64,000 nt of DNA from Chloroflexota bacterium (lineage in GTDB: Bacteria; Chloroflexota; Anaerolineae; Anaerolineales; UBA4823): contig JAKQIM010000048.1 in NCBI GenBank assembly GCA_029557965.1, positions 1 to 64,000 of the forward strand, read 5' to 3'. Shown here in pieces: positions 6,147 through 57,279 of this stretch. The translations under genes and the position numbers were made by a program. Under the pieces are notes generated by a model. That model saw only the letters and a list, made by a program, of their open reading frames with translations, was not told the origin of the DNA and did no database searches. The number at the start of each line of letters is the position of its first letter. Positions within the stretch are counted from its first letter, which is position 1.

Positions 6147-6176
6147 CAAACGACCCTATCTGTGGGTTAAAAGCGT

Positions 6177-6216
6177 CCATCGCCCAGCGTCTTTCCCCTC
6201 AGGCGCTGGGCGATGG
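6177..6216 (+). terminator. Hairpin after the bactofilin-like gene
   Basis: A perfect 13-bp inverted repeat, CCATCGCCCAGCG at 6177-6189 and its complement at 6204-6216, is separated by a 14-base loop. It lies 30 bases after the stop codon at 6146. There is only a short ATTT after it, so it may act as a weak intrinsic terminator or protect the transcript end. Confidence 0.5.
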
Positions 6217-6422
6217 ATTTCCTACCTTCCCCCTCTTGTCACTGCGACACGCTTTTGCCCCCCTTCGAATTGCCGCCCTTGCACATCGCAGAAACCGAGA
6301 AGAACTGCAGCCAGCATTCCCCCTCAGGAAAAAGACTGACCGCCCGGTTGGCTTGGTGACCAGGTAGACCCATCGCTTGATAACCTGGTATGATAGATTA
6401 TATACAACTATCCACACCGCAT

Positions 6423-17012: not shown

Positions 17013-17032
17013 AAGGGTCTTTTGGGCTACTT

Positions 17033-17080
17033 GAAAACGAGTGTGAGGCGGCGCCGAGGCACTGCATCACACTCGTTTTC
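17033..17080 (-). terminator. Hairpin after the Roadblock-V4R-regulator operon
   Basis: A perfect 14-bp inverted repeat (GAAAACGAGTGTGA at 17033-17046 and its complement at 17067-17080) with a 20-base loop sits between the response regulator stop (17103) and the MFS start (17012). Both arms end in A/T runs, so it can end transcription of the minus-strand operon. Confidence 0.6.
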
Positions 17081-17102
17081 ACACAATCATCTACAGGGTG
17101 GC

Positions 17103-17948
17103 CTATTGCAGCAGTTTGGCCTTTAACCCTGCCAGGTTTTTGAACGGTCCATCGCTGGCAGTCACCTGCCGGACGTCCAGTTTAAGCCGCCCCTCTTTCA
17201 GATGGCGGCGCTCTCGATCCTTGAGCGGGTAGAAATAATCCAGCGATTGCTCCAGGCGAGTTTGAATGCGCTCATGCAGGGCAGCCAGGTTCTGCAGCGA
17301 AGTGACCAGCACAAAGTCATCCGGCGTCAGGTGCCCGATGAAATCACTCGTGCCGCCTACCTCGCGCACGGCATTATGCACCATCAAGTTCACCGCCCGC
17401 AGCACATCATCAGCCGCCACGAAACCGTAAGTTTCGCGGAATTTTTCCAGGTTGCGCAGCGAGACCAGGATGATGGCCCACTCGTTGTTCTTCAAGCAGT
17501 CTTGCAGGCGCTCTTCTACCAACACCCCTTCTGGCAGGTTGGTGACCGGGTTGGTCAGGGTACCCTGGGTCGAGCGGCGCAGCGCATTGCGCACGCGCAA
17601 GCGCAGTTCTTGCACATCGAACGGCTTGGTGATGTAGTCGTCCGCGCCAAGCTCCAGGCCCTGCAAACGGTCAGAGCGAGCCCTCTTTTCGGTCAAAAAG
17701 ATGATCGGGATCTCTTTGGTCTTGCGGTTATTGCGCAAGCGGTAAGCCACCTCAAAGCCATCAATATCTGGCAGGCGGATATCCAAGATCACCAGGTCGG
17801 GCGGCGAGGCCTGGCACGACCGCACCGCATCTTCACCCCAGTTGACCGTGCGCACTTCATAACCCTGGACGTTAAAATAGGCGTTGACCATTTCAGCCAC
17901 GTCCAGGTCGTCTTCGACGATTAGAATAACCGGTTTTGGCTCTGCCAC
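17103..17948 (-). CDS. Response regulator with degenerate GGDEF output domain
   Basis: I choose the GTG at 17948 (VAEPKPVILIVEDD), eight bases after the V4R gene ends; the upstream extension overlaps that gene. The 281-residue product has a receiver domain (acidic VEDD, phospho-acceptor Asp in DLVILDIRLPD, Lys in YITKPF) and a C-terminal GGDEF-fold domain. The signature loop reads HLTPDDF rather than a GGDEF loop, so cyclic di-GMP synthesis is not expected; the domain more likely binds a nucleotide or a partner. It is last in an operon with V4R and Roadblock proteins. Confidence 0.8.
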   Translation of the reverse strand: MAEPKPVILIVEDDLDVAEMVNAYFNVQGYEVRTVNWGEDAVRSCQASPPDLVILDIRLPDIDGFEVAYRLRNNRKTKEIPIIFLTEKRARSDRLQGLELGADDYITKPFDVQELRLRVRNALRRSTQGTLTNPVTNLPEGVLVEERLQDCLKNNEWAIILVSLRNLEKFRETYGFVAADDVLRAVNLMVHNAVREVGGTSDFIGHLTPDDFVLVTSLQNLAALHERIQTRLEQSLDYFYPLKDRERRHLKEGRLKLDVRQVTASDGPFKNLAGLKAKLLQ

Positions 17949-25421: not shown

Positions 25422-25460
25422 GGGGTGTGAACAGGTAGTTTCACTACCTGTTCACACCCC
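25422..25460 (+). terminator. Perfect 18-bp hairpin after the SDR gene
   Basis: Positions 25422-25439 and 25443-25460 are exact complements around a TTC loop, an unusually long perfect stem. It starts 12 bases after the SDR stop. There is no T-run after it, so it may also stabilise the 3' end or bind a protein. Confidence 0.7.
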
Positions 25461-47550: not shown

Positions 47551-48162
47551 ATGAGCCATGCAGACGGTGCGCAGAGCGCACAAACAACCCAAGCCGCCCA
47601 GCATCTTGAGCGCCTGGTGCAGGAGCACTATGCCTACATCCGGCGGCTGGCGCTTTCGATCCTCAACGACCCCGATGAGGCCGAAGATGCCGCCCAAGAG
47701 ACCTTCATCGCCGCGCACCGCGCCTGGGATAGCTTCCGCGGCCAGGCCTCCTCCCGCACCTGGCTGACGAGCATTGCCGTCAACGCCTGCCGCGGCCGCC
47801 TGCGCAAGCGCAAGGTGCGCCAGGGCCTGCAGAACACACTCATCGCCCTGCACCTTCTACGCAGCCGCCCGGCTTCTCCAGAGCAGTCTGCCATCCAAAA
47901 TGAGGCCAGCCGCCTGCTGTGGCAGGCTGTGGACGCCCTGGACGAGAAGCACCGCCTGCCGCTCATCTTGCGCTACGTTCACGAGCTCAGCGTGCCGCAG
48001 ATTGCAGCGGCCCTGCGCATCAGCCCCGGCACCGTCCACTCTCGCCTGCATTATGCCCGTCTCAAGCTGCTGCAATCGCCAGGTCGTGGCAATTGGGCGC
48101 CTGGGGAAGAACCTCCCCAGCCACTTCTTCGAGAGGAGGAGACCCATGGAACATCCAGTTGA
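47551..48162 (+). CDS. ECF-type RNA polymerase sigma factor
   Basis: A 203-residue sigma factor. Region 2 reads IRRLALSILNDPDEAEDAAQETF and region 4 LPLILRYVHELSVPQIAAALRISPGTVHSRLHYAR, split by a short linker: the ECF plan. The ATG at 47551 lacks a clear ribosome site; a TTG two codons earlier is also in frame. The downstream anti-sigma-like gene overlaps it by 17 bases, so it is probably held inactive at the membrane. Confidence 0.9.
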   Translation: MSHADGAQSAQTTQAAQHLERLVQEHYAYIRRLALSILNDPDEAEDAAQETFIAAHRAWDSFRGQASSRTWLTSIAVNACRGRLRKRKVRQGLQNTLIALHLLRSRPASPEQSAIQNEASRLLWQAVDALDEKHRLPLILRYVHELSVPQIAAALRISPGTVHSRLHYARLKLLQSPGRGNWAPGEEPPQPLLREEETHGTSS

Positions 48163-50746
48163 ACCTCAAACCCTCACCCATGACGAAGCCCATTACGCCC
48201 TGCATGCCGCCGCCGACGGCCTGTTGACCCCTGCCGACCAGCAAGCCCTGGGCCAACACCTGGCCTCTTGCGAGGCCTGCCGGGCTTACGCCGCCGAGCT
48301 GGGTCAGTTCGAAACCGGTCTGCGCGCCGCGCTGCAAGAGCGTTGGCCTTCGCCCTCAGCCGAGGCCGTTCAACAGGGTTCTGGCAAGGTCTTCACCGCC
48401 CTCGAAAGACTCAATCCACAGAGGACCTCGCGTATGAAACACTTCATGTCCGGCTCAGCCCGCACCCTGGGTTGGGCCACCCTTGCCATCTTGTTCATCG
48501 TCGCTTTGGGATGGGGCATTCGCGCTCTGCTGCCCGGGCCCCTGCCGGCTGCACCAGCCACCCCCACCACTGCCCCCATCATCCAGGCCAGCCAGAGCAC
48601 CACCCCCACTGCTCCTGCCGAGGAAGCAGTCAACGGGAATTCCCCTGCACCTACCGCAACTCTCGCTGAGACCGCCGCGCCCACCCCTATACTCAACCTG
48701 CCGGCCTCCTCAACCGGCGCCTTCCCCAATGTTGCCTTTTCATTTACTATACCCTACCCCACCACTCCGGATTCGGTCAACATCTACCGCCACCAGCTTG
48801 GTGAAGCCATCACCAGCGAGAACGCTCGCCAGGTGGCGGCCCAGTTCGGCTTGCAGGGCGGCGTATATGCCATGCCCAGCGAAGCCTCTTGGTTAAATAT
48901 CTTCGAAGCCACCGATGGCTTCCGCCTGCTGCGCTTTTTGAGCTTCCCCGGCCAGTTCGTCTATGAGAACCGTTCCGGCCATTTCTACAGTTTCAGCGAG
49001 CCCCTGCCTTACGAAGAACAGGTGCGCATCGCCACCGAGTTTCTCAACCAGTACGGCCTGCTGGATCTGCCCTACCGCGCCGGCCCATCTCCCGTCCAGC
49101 CCAACACCGTGGTCTTCACCCCTCTGCTGGATGAGCGGCCCGTGATCTACGGCATCGGCAAGGACCCCGGCAACATGGCCTGGATGTCGGTCAGCATCGA
49201 CAAAGGCCAGGTCAGCCGTGCCATGATCAGCCGCCAATCCTTCAACGCGGTGGGCCAGTTCCCCATCATCACTGCCGAACAGGCCTGGGCCAGGTTGGGC
49301 GATCAAGATGCCATCCAGCATGCCCGTTACGCCGTTCTCGAAGCCGACCGGCCCATCACCTACCGCCAGTGGTCTCGCACCTATTCCGCCGGTGAGCCGG
49401 TGGATCTTTACGGCACTGTTCAGGTGCGCCAACCCACTACCCCCGGCGACCCCACCCTCATCACGCTCAACGAATACCTGGTTGCCAACGGCGAGGGGCT
49501 CGCTGCCAATGATCCCTGGACAAGCGTCCACGGCTGGGGGCAGTTCAATCCGAATGAAGATGGCAACCTGGTCTTCAACCTGGAGGGTTGGGAAATCTCT
49601 ACCCAAGAAAGTGAATATCTCACCGGCACCATCCAGCGCCAGGGCGACCAGGCTTTCCTGGCCGCCGGCGATGGCCGTACCCTGGCCTTGCCCGACCTGC
49701 CGGCTGAGGTACCTGCCGGGGTCACGGTCGAGTTAACCGGGTATATTTTGCCTGGTGATCCAGCCACCATGAATTGGGGTTATATCAGCACCGGCGAGTA
49801 TATTACCGCCTATTACATGTCCATGTCCTGCGGCGGCTGGGGCGGTGGTGGCGGCGGCTCTGAAAATGCCAATTTCGGCGGCGGCATGCTGTCAGTGCCC
49901 AATGTAGACCCTTCGATCCTGCCCACCCCCACGCCAGCGCCCGCTTTAGGGCCCTACGCCGTTGATGAGCGTCTGGATGGGCTGACCGGCACGGTGCAGG
50001 TCACCATCCACCGCTATCTCGATGGCTCTACCAGCCTGGAATTGGGGCTTTACGCCGAATCGACCGATAAGGCTTCCGGAGGCGTCTTCTTCTTCCTAGA
50101 AGGCGAGGCCTTGACAGGCATGGAGCAGTACCACAACCTGCCAATACGCGTCTGGGGCAGTGTCACCAGTCTCAAAAACGATACCCCCATCCTCAACGTC
50201 GAGCGCTATGAACTGCTTGATCCTGATCTGCGCATCCAGGAATGGACCGGAACCGAACAGATCGTGACCCTCGAAGACCGGGAGGTGGTCTTGCTCACCA
50301 CCAGCGACGGTCAATCTTTCGTGACCAACAGTTCACTCATCTGGGATGCTGCCGCCAGCCTGATCGGCATGCCCGGCGACCTGATCGAGATCGAGGGCTA
50401 TGTCATCCCCGGTCAACAATTCGGTGGTTACCCTGTCATCAAAGAGCTGAGCGGTGGAACGCCTCCAGACGGTGTCATCACCAGCAACCAGCCAAACGAA
50501 TATGACCACGCTTCTGACCTGGGTGCTTTCCCCGCTGGGGCGCTGAGCGGCCAGGTGACCATTGACAGCATCGAGCTGGCTTATGCCTCGACAACGCTCC
50601 AGCACTGCACCGCCGGGCAAGATACCGACCCCAGCACAGCCGCTTACCTGGTGGTCCAGCCCATCTGGGTCTTCACCGGGCACTTCGAGGATGGGCGCAT
50701 CTTCACCGTCCAGGTACAGGCACTTCCAAACGAATACATCCCCTAA
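48146..50746 (+). CDS. Very large zinc-finger anti-sigma-like membrane protein
   Basis: The true start is the ATG at 48146, with GAGGAGGAGA just upstream; 866 residues. Residues 1-60 carry an HC2 zinc motif (His38, Cys42, Cys45 in HLASCEAC), typical of anti-sigma factors. A membrane helix follows at about 107-127. The outside part of more than 700 residues has a Pro/Thr-rich linker and beta-rich sequence with no recognised family. It probably senses a surface condition and releases the sigma factor. Most anti-sigmas are far shorter. The stop codon lies inside the 46-base palindrome. Confidence 0.75.
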   Translation: MEHPVEPQTLTHDEAHYALHAAADGLLTPADQQALGQHLASCEACRAYAAELGQFETGLRAALQERWPSPSAEAVQQGSGKVFTALERLNPQRTSRMKHFMSGSARTLGWATLAILFIVALGWGIRALLPGPLPAAPATPTTAPIIQASQSTTPTAPAEEAVNGNSPAPTATLAETAAPTPILNLPASSTGAFPNVAFSFTIPYPTTPDSVNIYRHQLGEAITSENARQVAAQFGLQGGVYAMPSEASWLNIFEATDGFRLLRFLSFPGQFVYENRSGHFYSFSEPLPYEEQVRIATEFLNQYGLLDLPYRAGPSPVQPNTVVFTPLLDERPVIYGIGKDPGNMAWMSVSIDKGQVSRAMISRQSFNAVGQFPIITAEQAWARLGDQDAIQHARYAVLEADRPITYRQWSRTYSAGEPVDLYGTVQVRQPTTPGDPTLITLNEYLVANGEGLAANDPWTSVHGWGQFNPNEDGNLVFNLEGWEISTQESEYLTGTIQRQGDQAFLAAGDGRTLALPDLPAEVPAGVTVELTGYILPGDPATMNWGYISTGEYITAYYMSMSCGGWGGGGGGSENANFGGGMLSVPNVDPSILPTPTPAPALGPYAVDERLDGLTGTVQVTIHRYLDGSTSLELGLYAESTDKASGGVFFFLEGEALTGMEQYHNLPIRVWGSVTSLKNDTPILNVERYELLDPDLRIQEWTGTEQIVTLEDREVVLLTTSDGQSFVTNSSLIWDAAASLIGMPGDLIEIEGYVIPGQQFGGYPVIKELSGGTPPDGVITSNQPNEYDHASDLGAFPAGALSGQVTIDSIELAYASTTLQHCTAGQDTDPSTAAYLVVQPIWVFTGHFEDGRIFTVQVQALPNEYIP

Positions 50747-50783
50747 AAATAATGTGGGGCGCCCCACATTATTTTTAGGGGAT
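50738..50783. terminator. 46-base perfect palindrome, bidirectional terminator
   Basis: Positions 50738-50783 read the same on both strands (centre GGGGCGCCCC). It contains the TAA stop of the plus-strand anti-sigma-like gene (50744-50746) and the TAA stop of the minus-strand kinase gene (50777-50775). As RNA either strand folds into a 20-bp-plus stem that would end transcription from both sides. Confidence 0.85.
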
Positions 50784-53700
50784 ATACCTCGTCGCCCCGG
50801 CCTGGGTCGCAAACCACACCACCCCCTGCGCGTCCACATAGATCGCCCGGATCTCGGCCTCGATCAATCCATCTTTGACGCCGTACTGCTGCCAGTTCGT
50901 GCCGCCTGTTCCGGAGGCGCCATCCCAGCGGTAAACCCCGCTATCGCCAGTGCCCACCCACAGGCCGCCATCAGGCGCAAACGCCAGCGCCGTGAACCAG
51001 TTGTTCTCATCGGGCAAGGTGTAACGCGACCACTGTTCCTGCTCGAACTTGAACAGGGCATCGCCGTTCGCCGCTACCCAGATCGCGCCGTTGGTATCTT
51101 CGGCAATGGCAGAAACACCGTCCCACTCGGCCGCGAAGGATTTTCCGCCCCCATAATGCGCCCACTGCCCATCAGGGCTCCGCCGGCTTAAGCCAGGGTT
51201 GTAACCTTCTTCATCTACCGTAGAAACCCACACCGAGCCGTCAGAGGCGGCGAACACCAAGAAGACGGCGTTTTGCGACAGGCCGTTTGTGCGATCGTAC
51301 ACCTGCACCACCTGGTCATTCTCGATCTGTGCCAGGCCACCCAGCGTGCCCACCCAGGCCGTGCCATCGGGTGTCACTGCCAGCCCATAGATTTCGTTGG
51401 ACGGCAGGCCATTGGCCGTCGTCCAGCTCGTTACCACGCGATCTGCCCCCAGGCGGTGCAGCCCTTCTCCATATTCCAGGCACCAGGTATTGCCCTGTAC
51501 ATCCACAACCAGGGGCACGTAATCACGCGGCAGGTCACCCGGCTGAGACCAGGTCTCATTTCCCGGGTCAAAACGGTCCGTCTCGGGAACGCTCCTGCCC
51601 ACAAACCACAGGCTCCCGTCTGTCGCCGGCAAGATGCGTTCATACCCATGCCACACCTGCGGCAGGCCCGGCACTTGCCAGGTGTTGAAAGTATCCGTCA
51701 ACTGAGTGTCATCCGAGTCGTAAACAATCAACCCCTGATCACTGCCAAAATACAAGACGCCGTCATCGTCCTGGCCTATGCCGGTGACATACCGCACCCC
51801 CAGCTCTTCGTTTGAGAACATGGTCCAATCGGCATTATCGGGGTTAAAACGGTAAATGCCATCATAGGTGGCAAACCAATACCAACCCCGCTCATCACGC
51901 TGCATACCATCGGCATATTCAATGCCCTGGCCCTGCATCTGGGGCACGGGCTCAAAGGCGCTATCCACAAAGCGCACCACCCCGCCCCTGGTCGCCACCC
52001 AGGCTTGCCCAGGGCCATCCACCAACAGTGCAATGACCTCGTTATCAGGCAAGCCATCTTCCACAAAATAGGTTTCCCAGGTGCCTGCATCCGGATCATA
52101 ATGCCCCAGCCCGTGCATGGTGCCCACCCACAGTTCGCCATCTTCCCACGAGCGGATCACATACACGTTCCAAGATAGCTGCCCCGGCCCTTCTCCCGAT
52201 GGAAATGGCGCAAATGGCTGCCAGCCGTTGCCCCCCAGTTGGTTCAACCCACCCCCGGTTTGGCCGCTGTAGGCGGTACCAGCGAGCAATCCCAACGGGG
52301 TTGATTCAATCGCCATCACAACCGGGCTGTCCAGCCCGTCTGACATATCGTAGACGATCAGTTCATCTTCTGTTCGCTGAGCCAGCCCATTATTCGTCGC
52401 CGCCCAAATGTGGTAATCATCTGGGTGCAGCAGAAGGTCATTAATATACGTACCCGGCAGGCCATCTGCCGCCGTATAATGCCCAACAAGATTCCCGCCT
52501 GAGCGTTCCCTAACCGTCAGTCCATGCCAATCGCCGCTGTAGACCTGGTCATCATCCACCACGATCGTGGCAGCCCAATTCCATGCCCCCCACGAGCGCC
52601 AGGCGGAGGGCTCGCCGGTGGAGACCTGAGCCGCCGGCGTGGAACCAGCAAGCACGCGCGCCCTGAAGATCAAGAAACGCCGCACCATGATCAACCCCAC
52701 AACCAGGGCCGCCAGCACCATCAATAGCCCAACCCCGCCCAACACCCAAAACAGCTTGCTCTTGGGCTTGCGCATGGGACGGGCCGCACGGGCTGGCTTT
52801 TCTACAGGGGGTGCGGTTGGCCCAGATGCTTTTGCGGGCGAGGTCAACACCGTGCCCGGCAGCGCCGTGCGCCCTTCTGCCGGTAGGCCTGAAGGGGCCT
52901 CATCCCCCACAACCGTTGAGGCTTGCGCATCGCCCGGCCCCAACGGCCCCCCGATGACCGTTTCTGCCGCCGACTGCGCCAGCACCTGTGGGCCGCGCAC
53001 CGTCTCAGCCTCGCCCAGGGCCTGCTTCCAGGCCGCCAGGAAATCGGTCATCGAAGCAAAACGGTCTTCCGGGTTCTTTGCCAGCGCTTTCAAGATCACC
53101 CGCTCCACCGCCGGTGAGATACCCGGGTACACCACCGAAGGCAGGGGCAGGGGCTCATTGATATGTTTTAGAATCACTGCCAGGGGGGTCTCAGCCTCAT
53201 ACGGCACACGCCCGGTTACCATCTCATACAAAATGACCCCCAGCGAATAAATATCTGTGCGCGCATCCACCTTCTGCCCCTGGGCCTGCTCAGGGCTCAT
53301 ATAGGCGGGCGTGCCCACCAGCGCACCTGTGCTGGTGAAATGCTTGTCGCTCTCCAAGAGCTTGGCAATGCCAAAATCGGCCAGGAATAAATTACCGCGC
53401 CGGTCTAGCAGCGCATTGGAAGGCTTCAAATCGCGGTGGATCACCCCCCGCGCGTGGGCATAATCCAGCGCGTCCGCGAGCTGCGAGAAAAGCCGGTCAA
53501 TCTCCCTCAACGCCATGTGCCCGGCCCCCAGGCGGTCTTTGAGTGTTCCGGCATCCAGGTAGCGCATCACCAGGTAAGGCACTTCATCGGCCTCACCGTG
53601 ATCGTAAACCGGCAGAATATGAGGATGCTCCAACCCGGCGATGGTCAGTGCTTCTTGATGGAAACGGGCTGAGAACTCACTCGATTCAGCCAATTGGCGC

Positions 53701-53837
53701 GGCAGCACCTTGAGTGCCACATCTCGATTCATGGCGGCGTGGTAGGCCCGGTAAACCGTTGCCATCCCCCCTTGCCCAATTTGCCCAATGATGCGATAGG
53801 GCCCCAACATTTGACCTGCTTGCAAACCGGTCATCAT
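50775..53837 (-). CDS. Ser/Thr kinase with membrane helix and propeller sensor
   Basis: A 1020-residue protein. The Hanks kinase domain spans about 12-275: glycine loop IGQGGMATVY, Lys43 in ALKVL, HRDLKPSN starting at 134, DFG at 154-156. A Pro/Thr/Ala linker leads to a membrane helix (about 365-388). The outer 620 residues contain two-component-regulator-propeller-like repeats (WVGTLGGLAQIENDQVVQVY, WVGTGDSGVYRWDG), a beta propeller. It looks like a receptor kinase. Its own promoter is at 53892-53864 (minus) with GAGGAGG before the start. ATG 53834 is an equal alternative. Confidence 0.9.
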   Translation of the reverse strand: MMTGLQAGQMLGPYRIIGQIGQGGMATVYRAYHAAMNRDVALKVLPRQLAESSEFSARFHQEALTIAGLEHPHILPVYDHGEADEVPYLVMRYLDAGTLKDRLGAGHMALREIDRLFSQLADALDYAHARGVIHRDLKPSNALLDRRGNLFLADFGIAKLLESDKHFTSTGALVGTPAYMSPEQAQGQKVDARTDIYSLGVILYEMVTGRVPYEAETPLAVILKHINEPLPLPSVVYPGISPAVERVILKALAKNPEDRFASMTDFLAAWKQALGEAETVRGPQVLAQSAAETVIGGPLGPGDAQASTVVGDEAPSGLPAEGRTALPGTVLTSPAKASGPTAPPVEKPARAARPMRKPKSKLFWVLGGVGLLMVLAALVVGLIMVRRFLIFRARVLAGSTPAAQVSTGEPSAWRSWGAWNWAATIVVDDDQVYSGDWHGLTVRERSGGNLVGHYTAADGLPGTYINDLLLHPDDYHIWAATNNGLAQRTEDELIVYDMSDGLDSPVVMAIESTPLGLLAGTAYSGQTGGGLNQLGGNGWQPFAPFPSGEGPGQLSWNVYVIRSWEDGELWVGTMHGLGHYDPDAGTWETYFVEDGLPDNEVIALLVDGPGQAWVATRGGVVRFVDSAFEPVPQMQGQGIEYADGMQRDERGWYWFATYDGIYRFNPDNADWTMFSNEELGVRYVTGIGQDDDGVLYFGSDQGLIVYDSDDTQLTDTFNTWQVPGLPQVWHGYERILPATDGSLWFVGRSVPETDRFDPGNETWSQPGDLPRDYVPLVVDVQGNTWCLEYGEGLHRLGADRVVTSWTTANGLPSNEIYGLAVTPDGTAWVGTLGGLAQIENDQVVQVYDRTNGLSQNAVFLVFAASDGSVWVSTVDEEGYNPGLSRRSPDGQWAHYGGGKSFAAEWDGVSAIAEDTNGAIWVAANGDALFKFEQEQWSRYTLPDENNWFTALAFAPDGGLWVGTGDSGVYRWDGASGTGGTNWQQYGVKDGLIEAEIRAIYVDAQGVVWFATQAGATRYIP

Positions 53838-53918: not shown

Positions 53919-54623
53919 CTACACCCTACCCCTCCAATATACTCTGAACTTCCACCGGATCGTTGTTTTGTTTTCCCGTTTCAAATGCGCGATCGCTTTC
54001 CTTCCAAAAATAAATCCGTATGTGCTCACAATATGCTCGAGCGTCCCATACTCCTGGTCCGAGAAGATATCCTGGTACGCAAAATGGAATTCATCGATAA
54101 AAATATGGTCCACCGTTTCATCCACCTTCTCGGGATCATCGATCACGTCATACAAGTCGCCCCCGTACCAACCGGGTGAGATGCCCACATAAACCACCGG
54201 GCCCTTTGCCACACGCAAGCCTTCACGGATAAAATCACGATACTGTTCCGGGGGGTAAAGGGCCAGCGTGATGCCGGTCACCAGGTCCACCGAGTCGTCC
54301 GCCAGCGGCAAAGCCAGAGCGTCTCCGCTCACAAAGGTTACCCGCTCCATGCCCTCGCTGCCTGCTTTTTCCCGCGCCACTTGCAACATGGCTGCCTCGT
54401 GCTCGATGCCAATCATCTTGCGCGCCAACCGCGCCAGCGCCAGGCTGGAGCTCCCTGTCCCAGCCCCCACATCCGCAATGCATTTGCCTGCCAGGTCGAT
54501 AATCCCCGGCAGCTGCTCGTAAATCGTCGGGTGATAGGGCGTGTTCGAAAATGCCTCATACACCTCCGGGTAATCCCGGTAAAGGATATCCCAACGGTTC
54601 TCGATCGACTCAGGTCGCGTCAT
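53919..54623 (-). CDS. Class I SAM-dependent methyltransferase
   Basis: A 234-residue methyltransferase: IADVGAGTGSSSLALA (motif I), acidic GIEHE, VTFVSGDALALPLADDSVD. The start overlaps the end of the glycosyltransferase gene by 14 bases, so the two form an operon. Substrate may be a sugar or lipid made by that pathway; this is positional inference. Confidence 0.85.
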   Translation of the reverse strand: MTRPESIENRWDILYRDYPEVYEAFSNTPYHPTIYEQLPGIIDLAGKCIADVGAGTGSSSLALARLARKMIGIEHEAAMLQVAREKAGSEGMERVTFVSGDALALPLADDSVDLVTGITLALYPPEQYRDFIREGLRVAKGPVVYVGISPGWYGGDLYDVIDDPEKVDETVDHIFIDEFHFAYQDIFSDQEYGTLEHIVSTYGFIFGRKAIAHLKRENKTTIRWKFRVYWRGRV

Positions 54624-55800
54624 AACGCATCCTTGAAAAATAGAACCTCTCCGCCTCCCTCATCACCGCCCCATGCTCCGCCTTCTCTCGCACCAGACGC
54701 AGGTTTTCATCCTTCGCTTTGGCACGCAGGGGCTCATCCCCCAATGCCTGCAAGATCGCCTGCGACAGGGCTTGCGGATCGCCCGGATCTACCAACAGGC
54801 CGTTCACACCTGGTTGGATCCACTCGCGCAAAGATTCAATCTCCCCGGCAATCGGGAAGCACCCGCAAGCCAGCGCCTCCAGCATAGTATTGGGCGTCCC
54901 ATCGTGCGTGGTGATCGAGAGCACCACCTGGGCCTGCTGGAACTGTTCTGCCATCTGTGGGCGGGTGAGCTTGGGCAGCAGGTCTACCGCCGCCCCGATC
55001 CCCAGCTTGTTCACCCACTGCTCCGCCAGCCCCACCCCTGCCATCGCCGGGCAGGTAAAGCGCACCTCCGGCCTTTCCTTCAGCACCAGCGGAATGGCCT
55101 GGAAGAAGGTATCGTTGCGCACGTATGCCCGCACTCCCCTGGGCTGGATCACAATGGGCGCCTCGAGCGCCTGCGCCGCCGGGTAGAACACCTCCATCTG
55201 GATGCCCCCGCCCCCCGGCAGCACGATCCCCGGCTTCTCGGCTGCGAAGCCCCACTTCCGCGCCAGGGCCTGGTCGCGCTGGCAGTCGGTGTGCAGGGCG
55301 TGCGCCCGCATCAGCGCTCGCCTGGTCAACCTGCCCATCCAGGGATTGGCGGTGGCATGCAGGGTAAAATCATTTCCCCACACCGACACCAACAGGGGCA
55401 TATCTGCCAATTCTTCCATCGCCATGGCCGCCAGCATCCCCTCGTAAGGGATGCGCATGGCGTGCACCAGGTCTGGTCGAACCGCTTCGATCACGGCCCT
55501 GAGCTTCCTGGCGGCCCGCGGCAAGGTCAGCGGTCCCAGCCACTGCCGCACCATCGTTCTTGCCCCCACCGGCAAGAGCTTAGCCAGCCTGCCCATCACC
55601 CCGCCGCCTGCCTTAGCCTCCCCCTCACCTTCCTTGGCCTCGCTGAATGCCGCCGGGATCACCGCCAGCGAGGTCAAGCCATCCACTGCCTGGCAGGGGA
55701 ACGATGAAGCCAGGTGCACCTCATGCCCTGCCCGGATGAAATACCTGATCCAATTCAAGGCGATCGCCGACCGCCCATCTGCCACGAATAAAATTCTCAT
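54610..55800 (-). CDS. GT4-type glycosyltransferase
   Basis: I use the ATG at 55800 (MRILFVADGRSAIALNW), matching the GT-B N-terminal fold; 396 residues. The C-terminal sugar-nucleotide loop reads ALACGCFPIAGEIESLREWI with the usual E-x7-E spacing, and VNGLLVDPGDP follows. It adds a sugar to an unknown acceptor in envelope or exopolysaccharide synthesis. The message starts very close to the ATG (promoter -10 at 55813-55808), so it may be leaderless. Confidence 0.85.
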   Translation of the reverse strand: MRILFVADGRSAIALNWIRYFIRAGHEVHLASSFPCQAVDGLTSLAVIPAAFSEAKEGEGEAKAGGGVMGRLAKLLPVGARTMVRQWLGPLTLPRAARKLRAVIEAVRPDLVHAMRIPYEGMLAAMAMEELADMPLLVSVWGNDFTLHATANPWMGRLTRRALMRAHALHTDCQRDQALARKWGFAAEKPGIVLPGGGGIQMEVFYPAAQALEAPIVIQPRGVRAYVRNDTFFQAIPLVLKERPEVRFTCPAMAGVGLAEQWVNKLGIGAAVDLLPKLTRPQMAEQFQQAQVVLSITTHDGTPNTMLEALACGCFPIAGEIESLREWIQPGVNGLLVDPGDPQALSQAILQALGDEPLRAKAKDENLRLVREKAEHGAVMREAERFYFSRMRYDAT

Positions 55801-55807
55801 ACCCTGC

Positions 55808-55836
55808 ATCGTACCACATTCGCCAAACCTTGACAA
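55808..55836 (-). promoter_or_regulatory. Promoter of the glycosyltransferase operon, shares -35
   Basis: Minus strand TTGTCA (55836-55831), 17 bases, TACGAT (55813-55808); transcription would start near 55801, one base from the ATG. Its -35 box overlaps the -35 of the divergent MFS promoter. Confidence 0.55.
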
Positions 55837-55858
55837 ATCACCTACCTGCCAGTACAAT
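55830..55858 (+). promoter_or_regulatory. Promoter of the MFS carrier gene
   Basis: TTGACA (55830-55835), 17 bases, TACAAT (55853-55858), a near-consensus promoter. The start is near 55865, giving a 119-base leader with two hairpins before the ATG at 55984. Confidence 0.75.
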
Positions 55859-55872
55859 GCCTTTTCCGTTCA

Positions 55873-55960
55873 CCCCGGCCATCATTGGCTGGGGATTTTG
55901 TTTAAGAGAGGTTTGGGGAGCAATCACCACCCGCCAGGGTGATCATTGCTCCCCAAACCT
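55873..55960 (+). promoter_or_regulatory. Two tandem hairpins in the MFS leader
   Basis: Hairpin 1: CCCCGGCCA (55873-55881) with TGGCTGGGG (55886-55894), followed by ATTTTG. Hairpin 2: AGGTTTGGGGAGCA (55909-55922) with its complement (55947-55960), plus an inner ATCACC/GGTGAT stem beyond a CAT bulge, followed by TTTTATAT. Both resemble terminators placed between a strong promoter and the MFS start, so the leader may be an attenuator or riboswitch. Confidence 0.5.
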
Positions 55961-55983
55961 TTTATATTACCTAGAGGCATACC

Positions 55984-57279
55984 ATGTTCAAAACCAACTT
56001 CATCATCGTCTGGGCGGGGCAGGTCATCTCCGTCTTCGGCTCCAACCTGAGCGGGTTCGCCCTGGGCGTCTGGCTCTACCAGCGCACCGGCTCCGCCAGC
56101 AATTTCGCCCTCGTGGCTCTCTGCACCGTGCTGCCGCAGGTCCTGCTTTCTCCCCTGGCTGGCGTGTGGATCGACCGTCACAACCGCCGCTGGACGATGG
56201 CCCTGGCTGATACCGGCGCCGCCCTGTGCACACTCTGCCTGGCGGTGTTATTCTTCTCCGGCCACATTCAAGTCTGGCACATTTTCCTGGCCACTGCCAT
56301 CTCTTCCGCCTTCAGCAGCCTGCAAGTGCCAGCCTACACCGCCCTGGTCGCCTCCACCACCGCCCACGGCCAATTAGGCCGCGTCAACGGCCTGCTCCAG
56401 CTTGGGCGCGGCCTGGCCGATATCCTGGCCCCTGGGATCGCCGGGGTATTGGTGGTTACCATCGGGGTGCCGGGCGTCTTGCTGGTCGATCTGCTCACCT
56501 TTTGTGCCGCCGTCTTGACCCTGATCTTTGTGCGTTTCCCCGGCCTGGAAGAAGCCCGCCCTCCATCGCAGGATGAGTCATCCGTCAAGACCTCCTGGTG
56601 GTCCGAATTGCAAGTCGGCTGGCGCATGCTAGCGGCCCAGCCTGCTCTTTCCACCCTGCTGCGTTACCAGGTTTTATTCACCTTCTTATGGAGCTTGTTC
56701 GGCGTGCTGGTGACGCCCATGGTACTGGGATTTGCTACGCCAGATGAATTGGGTGCCGCCCTCACTGTCGCCGGGATCGGGCTGCTCTCCGGCAGCCTGC
56801 TCATGACCGCCTGGGGCGGACCGAAACGCCGGGTATGGGGCTTGCTGTTCTTCGAGCTGCTCAGCGCCCTCGCCTTCTGCCTGATGGGCCTGCGTCCCAG
56901 CCTGGCCCTCGTTGCCGGGGCAGCCTTCCTGGCGCATTTTACCCTGGCTTTCGTTTCCAGTTTGGCCGAGGCCATCTGGCAGGGCCAGGTGCCGCATGCC
57001 CTCCAAGGGCGGATATTCGCCTTCAAACAGACCGCCCTCAAGCTGGGCACCTTCTGCGCTTACCTGGCAGCAAGCCTGCTGGCCGACCGTTTCCTGGAGC
57101 CGCTGCTGCGCTCCGACGGCCTCCTGGCGCGCAGCCTGGGACCCCGGTTCGGCACCGGCCCCGGGCGCGGCCTGGCCTTCCTGTTCTTCCTGATCGGCCT
57201 GCTCAAAGCCGCCTCGGTGCTCTGGATCTATGCCGCCCCCGGCCTGCGCCGCCTGGATAGCGACCTATCGCGTCAATAA
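55984..57279 (+). CDS. MFS transporter, MFS_3/enterobactin-exporter-like
   Basis: A 431-residue carrier with about 12 helices. The N-terminal VWLYQRTGSASNFALVALC region and VWIDRHNRRWTM (motif A) are typical of drug or siderophore exporters of the MFS_3 group. Substrate not readable. AGAGG precedes the ATG. Unusual: a terminator-like hairpin sits 23 bases before the start. It converges with the DUF4173 gene; only 43 bases separate them. Confidence 0.8.
   Translation: MFKTNFIIVWAGQVISVFGSNLSGFALGVWLYQRTGSASNFALVALCTVLPQVLLSPLAGVWIDRHNRRWTMALADTGAALCTLCLAVLFFSGHIQVWHIFLATAISSAFSSLQVPAYTALVASTTAHGQLGRVNGLLQLGRGLADILAPGIAGVLVVTIGVPGVLLVDLLTFCAAVLTLIFVRFPGLEEARPPSQDESSVKTSWWSELQVGWRMLAAQPALSTLLRYQVLFTFLWSLFGVLVTPMVLGFATPDELGAALTVAGIGLLSGSLLMTAWGGPKRRVWGLLFFELLSALAFCLMGLRPSLALVAGAAFLAHFTLAFVSSLAEAIWQGQVPHALQGRIFAFKQTALKLGTFCAYLAASLLADRFLEPLLRSDGLLARSLGPRFGTGPGRGLAFLFFLIGLLKAASVLWIYAAPGLRRLDSDLSRQ

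Follow-up and report, generated by a model that had tools for sequence, protein, structure and literature searches.

Attenuators that control resistance genes normally depend on either a peptide that stalls the ribosome or an RNA that binds a ligand. In streptococci, the mef(E)/mel element (mef(A)/msr(D)) has a 327-nt leader with the peptide MTASMRLR, an anti-attenuator fold, and one terminator (PMC4335068). The erm(K) leader of Bacillus, in the form in which PMC4335068 cites it, is 354 nt long and has two adjacent Rho-independent terminators and a stalling leader peptide. Conditional intrinsic termination is also found upstream of the ABC-F resistance genes vmlR and msrD (PMC9226507; PMC10314930), and the rimP leader of several species of Gammaproteobacteria carries a second terminator, arranged in tandem with the first and lying upstream of it (PMC2965389).

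Here we describe an MFS transporter gene, from uncultured Chloroflexota, whose leader consists almost wholly of two intrinsic-terminator hairpins. The gene lies in a 64-kb stretch of DNA, which we call the window; its genome is an incomplete bin (56% complete), and the closest named homologs are Anaerolineaceae/Chloroflexi records. The features of the locus are as follows:

54610–55800, minus strand: glycosyltransferase (Pfam glycosyl transferases group 1); its ATG at 55800 is the predicted transcript start, so that the message is possibly leaderless
55808–55836, minus strand: predicted glycosyltransferase promoter; −35 TTGTCA (55836–55831), 17 nt, −10 TACGAT (55813–55808); 9 of 12 consensus matches
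55830–55858, plus strand: MFS promoter; −35 TTGACA (55830–55835), 17-nt spacer, −10 TACAAT (55853–55858); 11 of 12 sigma-70-type consensus matches
55865–55983, plus strand: predicted MFS leader, 119 nt, from a predicted start site (~55865); fold z −8
55873–55903, plus strand: terminator hairpin T1 with T-rich run; stem-loop 55873–55894, 9 pairs, −17.8 kcal/mol
55908–55969, plus strand: terminator hairpin T2 with T-rich run; arms of 24 nt, about −39 kcal/mol; 22 nt upstream of the ATG
55973–55977, plus strand: Shine–Dalgarno-like AGAGG, 6 nt upstream of the MFS ATG
55984–57279, plus strand: MFS transporter, 431 aa (Pfam MFS_1), with Mef macrolide-efflux models as next-best NCBIfam matches (below cut-offs)

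The top NCBIfam match of the MFS protein is TIGR00900 (H+ antiporter), and its score against the MefA model is 97.8 bits, below the curated cut-off of 675. Judged by sequence, it is a relative of the Mef macrolide-efflux pumps and not a member of that group. As in mef(E)/mel, the gene for a Mef-type MFS pump is preceded by an intrinsic terminator and, ahead of that, by a consensus promoter; attenuation is reported there (PMC4335068) and predicted here. Unlike mef(E)/mel, the window leader is only 119 nt long, no peptide or alternative fold was found in it, and two or three terminators are present across the related leaders described below. The locus resembles the resistance gene erm(K) in having two adjacent terminators in its leader and differs from it in that erm(K), as cited, has a leader peptide and encodes a methylase rather than a pump. 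With vmlR and msrD it shares intrinsic termination upstream of the gene, which is conditional there and predicted from sequence here; msrD relies on ribosome stalling at a leader ORF (PMC10314930), whereas no such ORF was found in this leader. Tandem terminators are shared with the rimP leader; there, in contrast to the leader described here, a potential antiterminator is clear and a motif is conserved, and the gene that follows is of a different kind.

The preliminary description of this DNA had assigned the MFS message a 119-base leader holding two hairpins, each followed by a T-rich run. We obtained the same length and the same two hairpins, with the second ending 22 nt rather than 23 nt before the ATG. 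The T1 stem-loop is followed by the T-rich run ATTTTGTTT. Hairpin 2 (about 55908–55961) has 24-nt arms that are 92% complementary and a 4-nt loop, the inverted repeat spanning 55909–55960, ranks among the longest close inverted repeats of the window, and is followed by an interrupted U-run, TTTTATATT. Folding of positions 55850–56010 gave −68.7 kcal/mol, compared with −37.5 ± 3.9 kcal/mol for shuffled sequences (z −8; none of 200 shuffles was as low). Elsewhere in the window, a long palindrome at 50735–50786 (28-nt arms, 96% complementary, overlapping), situated between convergent genes at 47774–50746 (plus strand) and 50775–53837 (minus strand), is probably a bidirectional terminator; other long near-perfect hairpins occur at 6176–6217, 17032–17081, and 25422–25460.

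Had the structure been peculiar to this locus, the preliminary description would have been undermined; instead, five further leaders share the same plan, giving six in all (the window, L146, L144/L063, L143/L064, L149, and L148). This is a small set that includes two close relatives, and all of its starts and terminators are predicted. The encoded MFS proteins are 61% (L146), about 56% (L144/L063 and L143/L064), 46% (L149), and 45% (L148) identical to that of the window. Each of the five other leaders has a promoter with 10 to 11 of 12 consensus matches at the matching place, that of L148 (TTGACC-17-TATAAA) having been read by eye because the scan demanded a final T. In all six, T1 starts 1 to 13 nt past the predicted start and is followed by one or two further terminators, the last of which ends 22 to 36 nt before the ATG, for a total leader length of 99 to 166 nt. 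In L143 and L144, the initial, looser search setting called the middle hairpin, whereas the stricter setting did not. An intrinsic terminator is thus predicted between promoter and start codon in every member, the arrangement by which attenuators are recognized.

The upstream neighbor is divergent in all six cases: a glycosyltransferase in the window, a long gene on the minus strand, resembling a glycoside hydrolase, in L063 and L064, a VIT/ferritin-like gene in L149, a hydrolase-like gene in L146 (both names judged from sequence), and the SRP RNA in L148. Because the neighbors diverge, we ruled out that the hairpins are 3′ terminators of a preceding gene.

The stems persist while their sequences change. 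A comparison of L063 with L064 shows compensatory changes, on both sides, at three pairs of the last stem and no broken pair; with only two sequences the shuffle control for this test is weak (60/500). Pairing in this stem is 98%, compared with 30 to 56% in slid controls. Stem sequences mostly differ among the members and are unalignable outside L063/L064, and strong stems are nonetheless present. The primary sequence of the leader is not conserved, since a DNA search of 201 genomes of the order returned only the window itself and short chance-like matches. Viral contigs yielded no relative, and plasmids yielded matches below 60% identity only. We also rejected a genome-wide repeat or mobile element as the source of hairpin 2; no other copy of its arm occurs at fewer than two mismatches in the window's genome.

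We placed these leaders among their homologs in a tree of 117 MFS proteins, where a subclade of 11 genes with moderate support (SH-aLRT 83–87) comprises the six tandem leaders, four single-terminator genes, and one gene (L152) lacking a terminator. Ten of these 11 genes therefore have a terminator no more than 40 nt from the ATG, compared with about 1 of 106 elsewhere in the tree (Fisher's test, p about 1e-12, which is not a true probability because the rows are related). In the four single-terminator genes, the terminator lies 22 to 32 nt before the start and behind a small gene. Outside the subclade, the tandem arrangement was seen only in L207, where the second hairpin was judged by eye. 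One small upstream gene, an 89-aa regulator-like gene in L065 (2606–2872) that immediately precedes a sister MFS gene, from which a terminator separates it, has a weak, below-cut-off match to RHH_4 (ribbon-helix-helix), and C-termini like that of its product (..DYDASASHRMIE) are also encoded upstream of L041, L042, and L147. In L043, whose MFS protein is another homolog, a very long hairpin (CACCACGGAGGCACAGAGG... arms) about 80 to 150 nt ahead of the MFS start has the look of a dispersed repeat, not of a terminator.

Intrinsic terminators appear from their distribution to be in use in the window's genome, which was sampled in stretches (400 kb): they were predicted at 38 of 126 convergent gene ends (30%) and at 2 of 126 mid-gene controls (1.6%). 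Against a background of 631 genes (about 860 kb, crude simple calling), a promoter–terminator–ATG order was found in five, and two terminators behind a promoter were found for the window gene only. The window's genome also has a near-perfect palindrome (GGTGAAGC..GCACGGCTTCACC) between two divergent genes in L172 (about 17780–17810), which reads as a hairpin in either direction. In L166, the rho gene of the genome (2160–3437) has a promoter with 12 of 12 consensus matches, and its leader contains a hairpin with T residues behind it.

The preliminary description had also proposed that TTGACAA serves as the −35 element of both divergent promoters. The element is indeed present on both strands, with the minus-strand −35 overlapping that of the MFS promoter; on the minus side the promoter is weak, with 9/12 matches, and a shared divergent promoter was not seen in the relatives' leaders, making it specific to the window locus. 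The sharing is partly built in because TTGACAA is nearly self-complementary and always gives TTGTCA on the opposite strand. Our scan returned 3 promoter-like sites in 4 kb, compared with 1.1 ± 0.9 in shuffled sequence. A leaderless glycosyltransferase message is plausible, as the predicted start falls at the ATG at 55800. A 12-nt near-repeat, TCSCCAAACCTT, occurs at 55820–55831 in the divergent promoter region and again at 55950–55961, within the 3′ arm of hairpin 2; this may be chance.

We consider it probable that this is the transcription-attenuation leader of a Mef-like efflux MFS, with conditional readthrough set via RNA polymerase or hairpin formation. RNA polymerase would initiate at the strong promoter and at once transcribe two intrinsic terminators, so that the default outcome would be that transcription stops and the pump would be produced only from transcripts that pass both. 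Readthrough would be the only evident route to the MFS gene because there is no promoter-sized space after the last terminator, and since the promoter and two to three terminators are kept despite sequence change, it is probable that production of the pump requires something to let polymerase pass these stops. The promoter, the tandem terminators, their conservation, and the lack of the usual sensors are read from the sequence; that termination occurs here and is conditional we infer. Neither an alternative RNA fold nor a leader peptide nor a recognizable aptamer seems to be the switch; readthrough is more likely raised by some factor or condition that acts on RNA polymerase or affects how the hairpins form. 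The trigger might be exposure to a compound that the pump exports. Tentatively, and as an unlikely extreme of this reading, the termination step itself could be the sensor, with any agent that disturbs elongation or hairpins raising readthrough and turning on the pump without an aptamer, leader peptide, or antiterminator; our literature search returned nothing on the sensing of RNA polymerase inhibitors by tandem terminators. Because the leader shares the logic of known attenuators and lacks their sensors, we set it as a variant of transcription attenuation and not as a Mef-type leader or a riboswitch.

An unregulated leader, in which the terminators merely hold a costly membrane pump at low expression, is possible and in our view unlikely. 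Such an expression-lowering leader would look identical, and no sensor was found in the one described here. There is precedent in the clostridial transporter genes whose expression ratios are set by internal terminators (PMC9045158), and in the sister MFS genes a single terminator separates the pump gene from a small regulator-like gene. However, a weak promoter would suffice for low expression, and it would be costly to keep for that end a near-consensus promoter together with two or three strong terminators in all members.

Conditional attenuation could take the specific form of a trans-acting antiterminator that loads near the promoter and takes polymerase past the terminators, such as a LoaP-kind NusG paralog, a cold-shock protein, or another RNA-binding protein. 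This is doubtful as a particular mechanism. It would fit bare terminators placed behind a promoter, and short NusG-like genes lie next to, or replace, the usual NusG in three of the six genomes (G583, G680, and G687); against it, no such gene was found in G657, G667, or the window's genome at its 56% completeness, no LoaP/RfaH-type recognition element was seen in the leader, and no conserved loop or hairpin sequence is available as a protein target.

It is improbable that this leader works by ribosome-mediated attenuation of the kind described for mef(E)/mel, msrD, erm(K), and vmlR, where a ribosome that a drug has stalled on a short ORF in the leader releases the transcript from the terminators. 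The protein resembles the Mef pumps, of which mef(E) is so controlled (PMC4335068), and L146 contains ATG GGC TGG TAG within its last terminator arm. Yet no convincing uORF with a Shine–Dalgarno sequence was found before or between the terminators, only 1 to 13 nt precede T1, and we rejected a conserved uORF at the shared GGCTGG segment, where the reading frames are not conserved. A search for an antiterminator gave a similar result: in five of six leaders, pairing of upstream RNA with the left arm of the last terminator was no better than in shuffled sequences, the exception being a borderline pairing in L144 (equaled by 6% of shuffles).

It is very improbable that the inverted repeats are DNA operators of a repressor or chance palindromes. 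The recurrence of the 12-nt motif in the promoter region and hairpin 2 would suit an operator, but a T-rich run follows each hairpin on the MFS strand, pairing is kept while the arms differ between relatives, and the spacing to the ATG remains within 22 to 36 nt. Least of all do we credit a metabolite-binding riboswitch: position and terminator form are typical of expression platforms, but Rfam searches of the leaders at gathering and relaxed thresholds returned nothing credible, no aptamer was found in the scant RNA ahead of T1, and neither a conserved unpaired core nor a mutually exclusive fold was found across the leaders. Of the "attenuator or riboswitch" originally suggested, the attenuator is thus strengthened by the five further tandem leaders and their rarity elsewhere, while the riboswitch is not borne out; the preliminary description had itself recognized no known riboswitch class.

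These leaders add a conserved predicted attenuator for the Chloroflexota, where our literature search returned none. They also make it possible to test in a defined way whether the termination of transcription can by itself sense a drug or stress. A leader made only of stacked terminators, with pairing preserved as the sequence changes, suggests that there may be a simpler way to an inducible pump.
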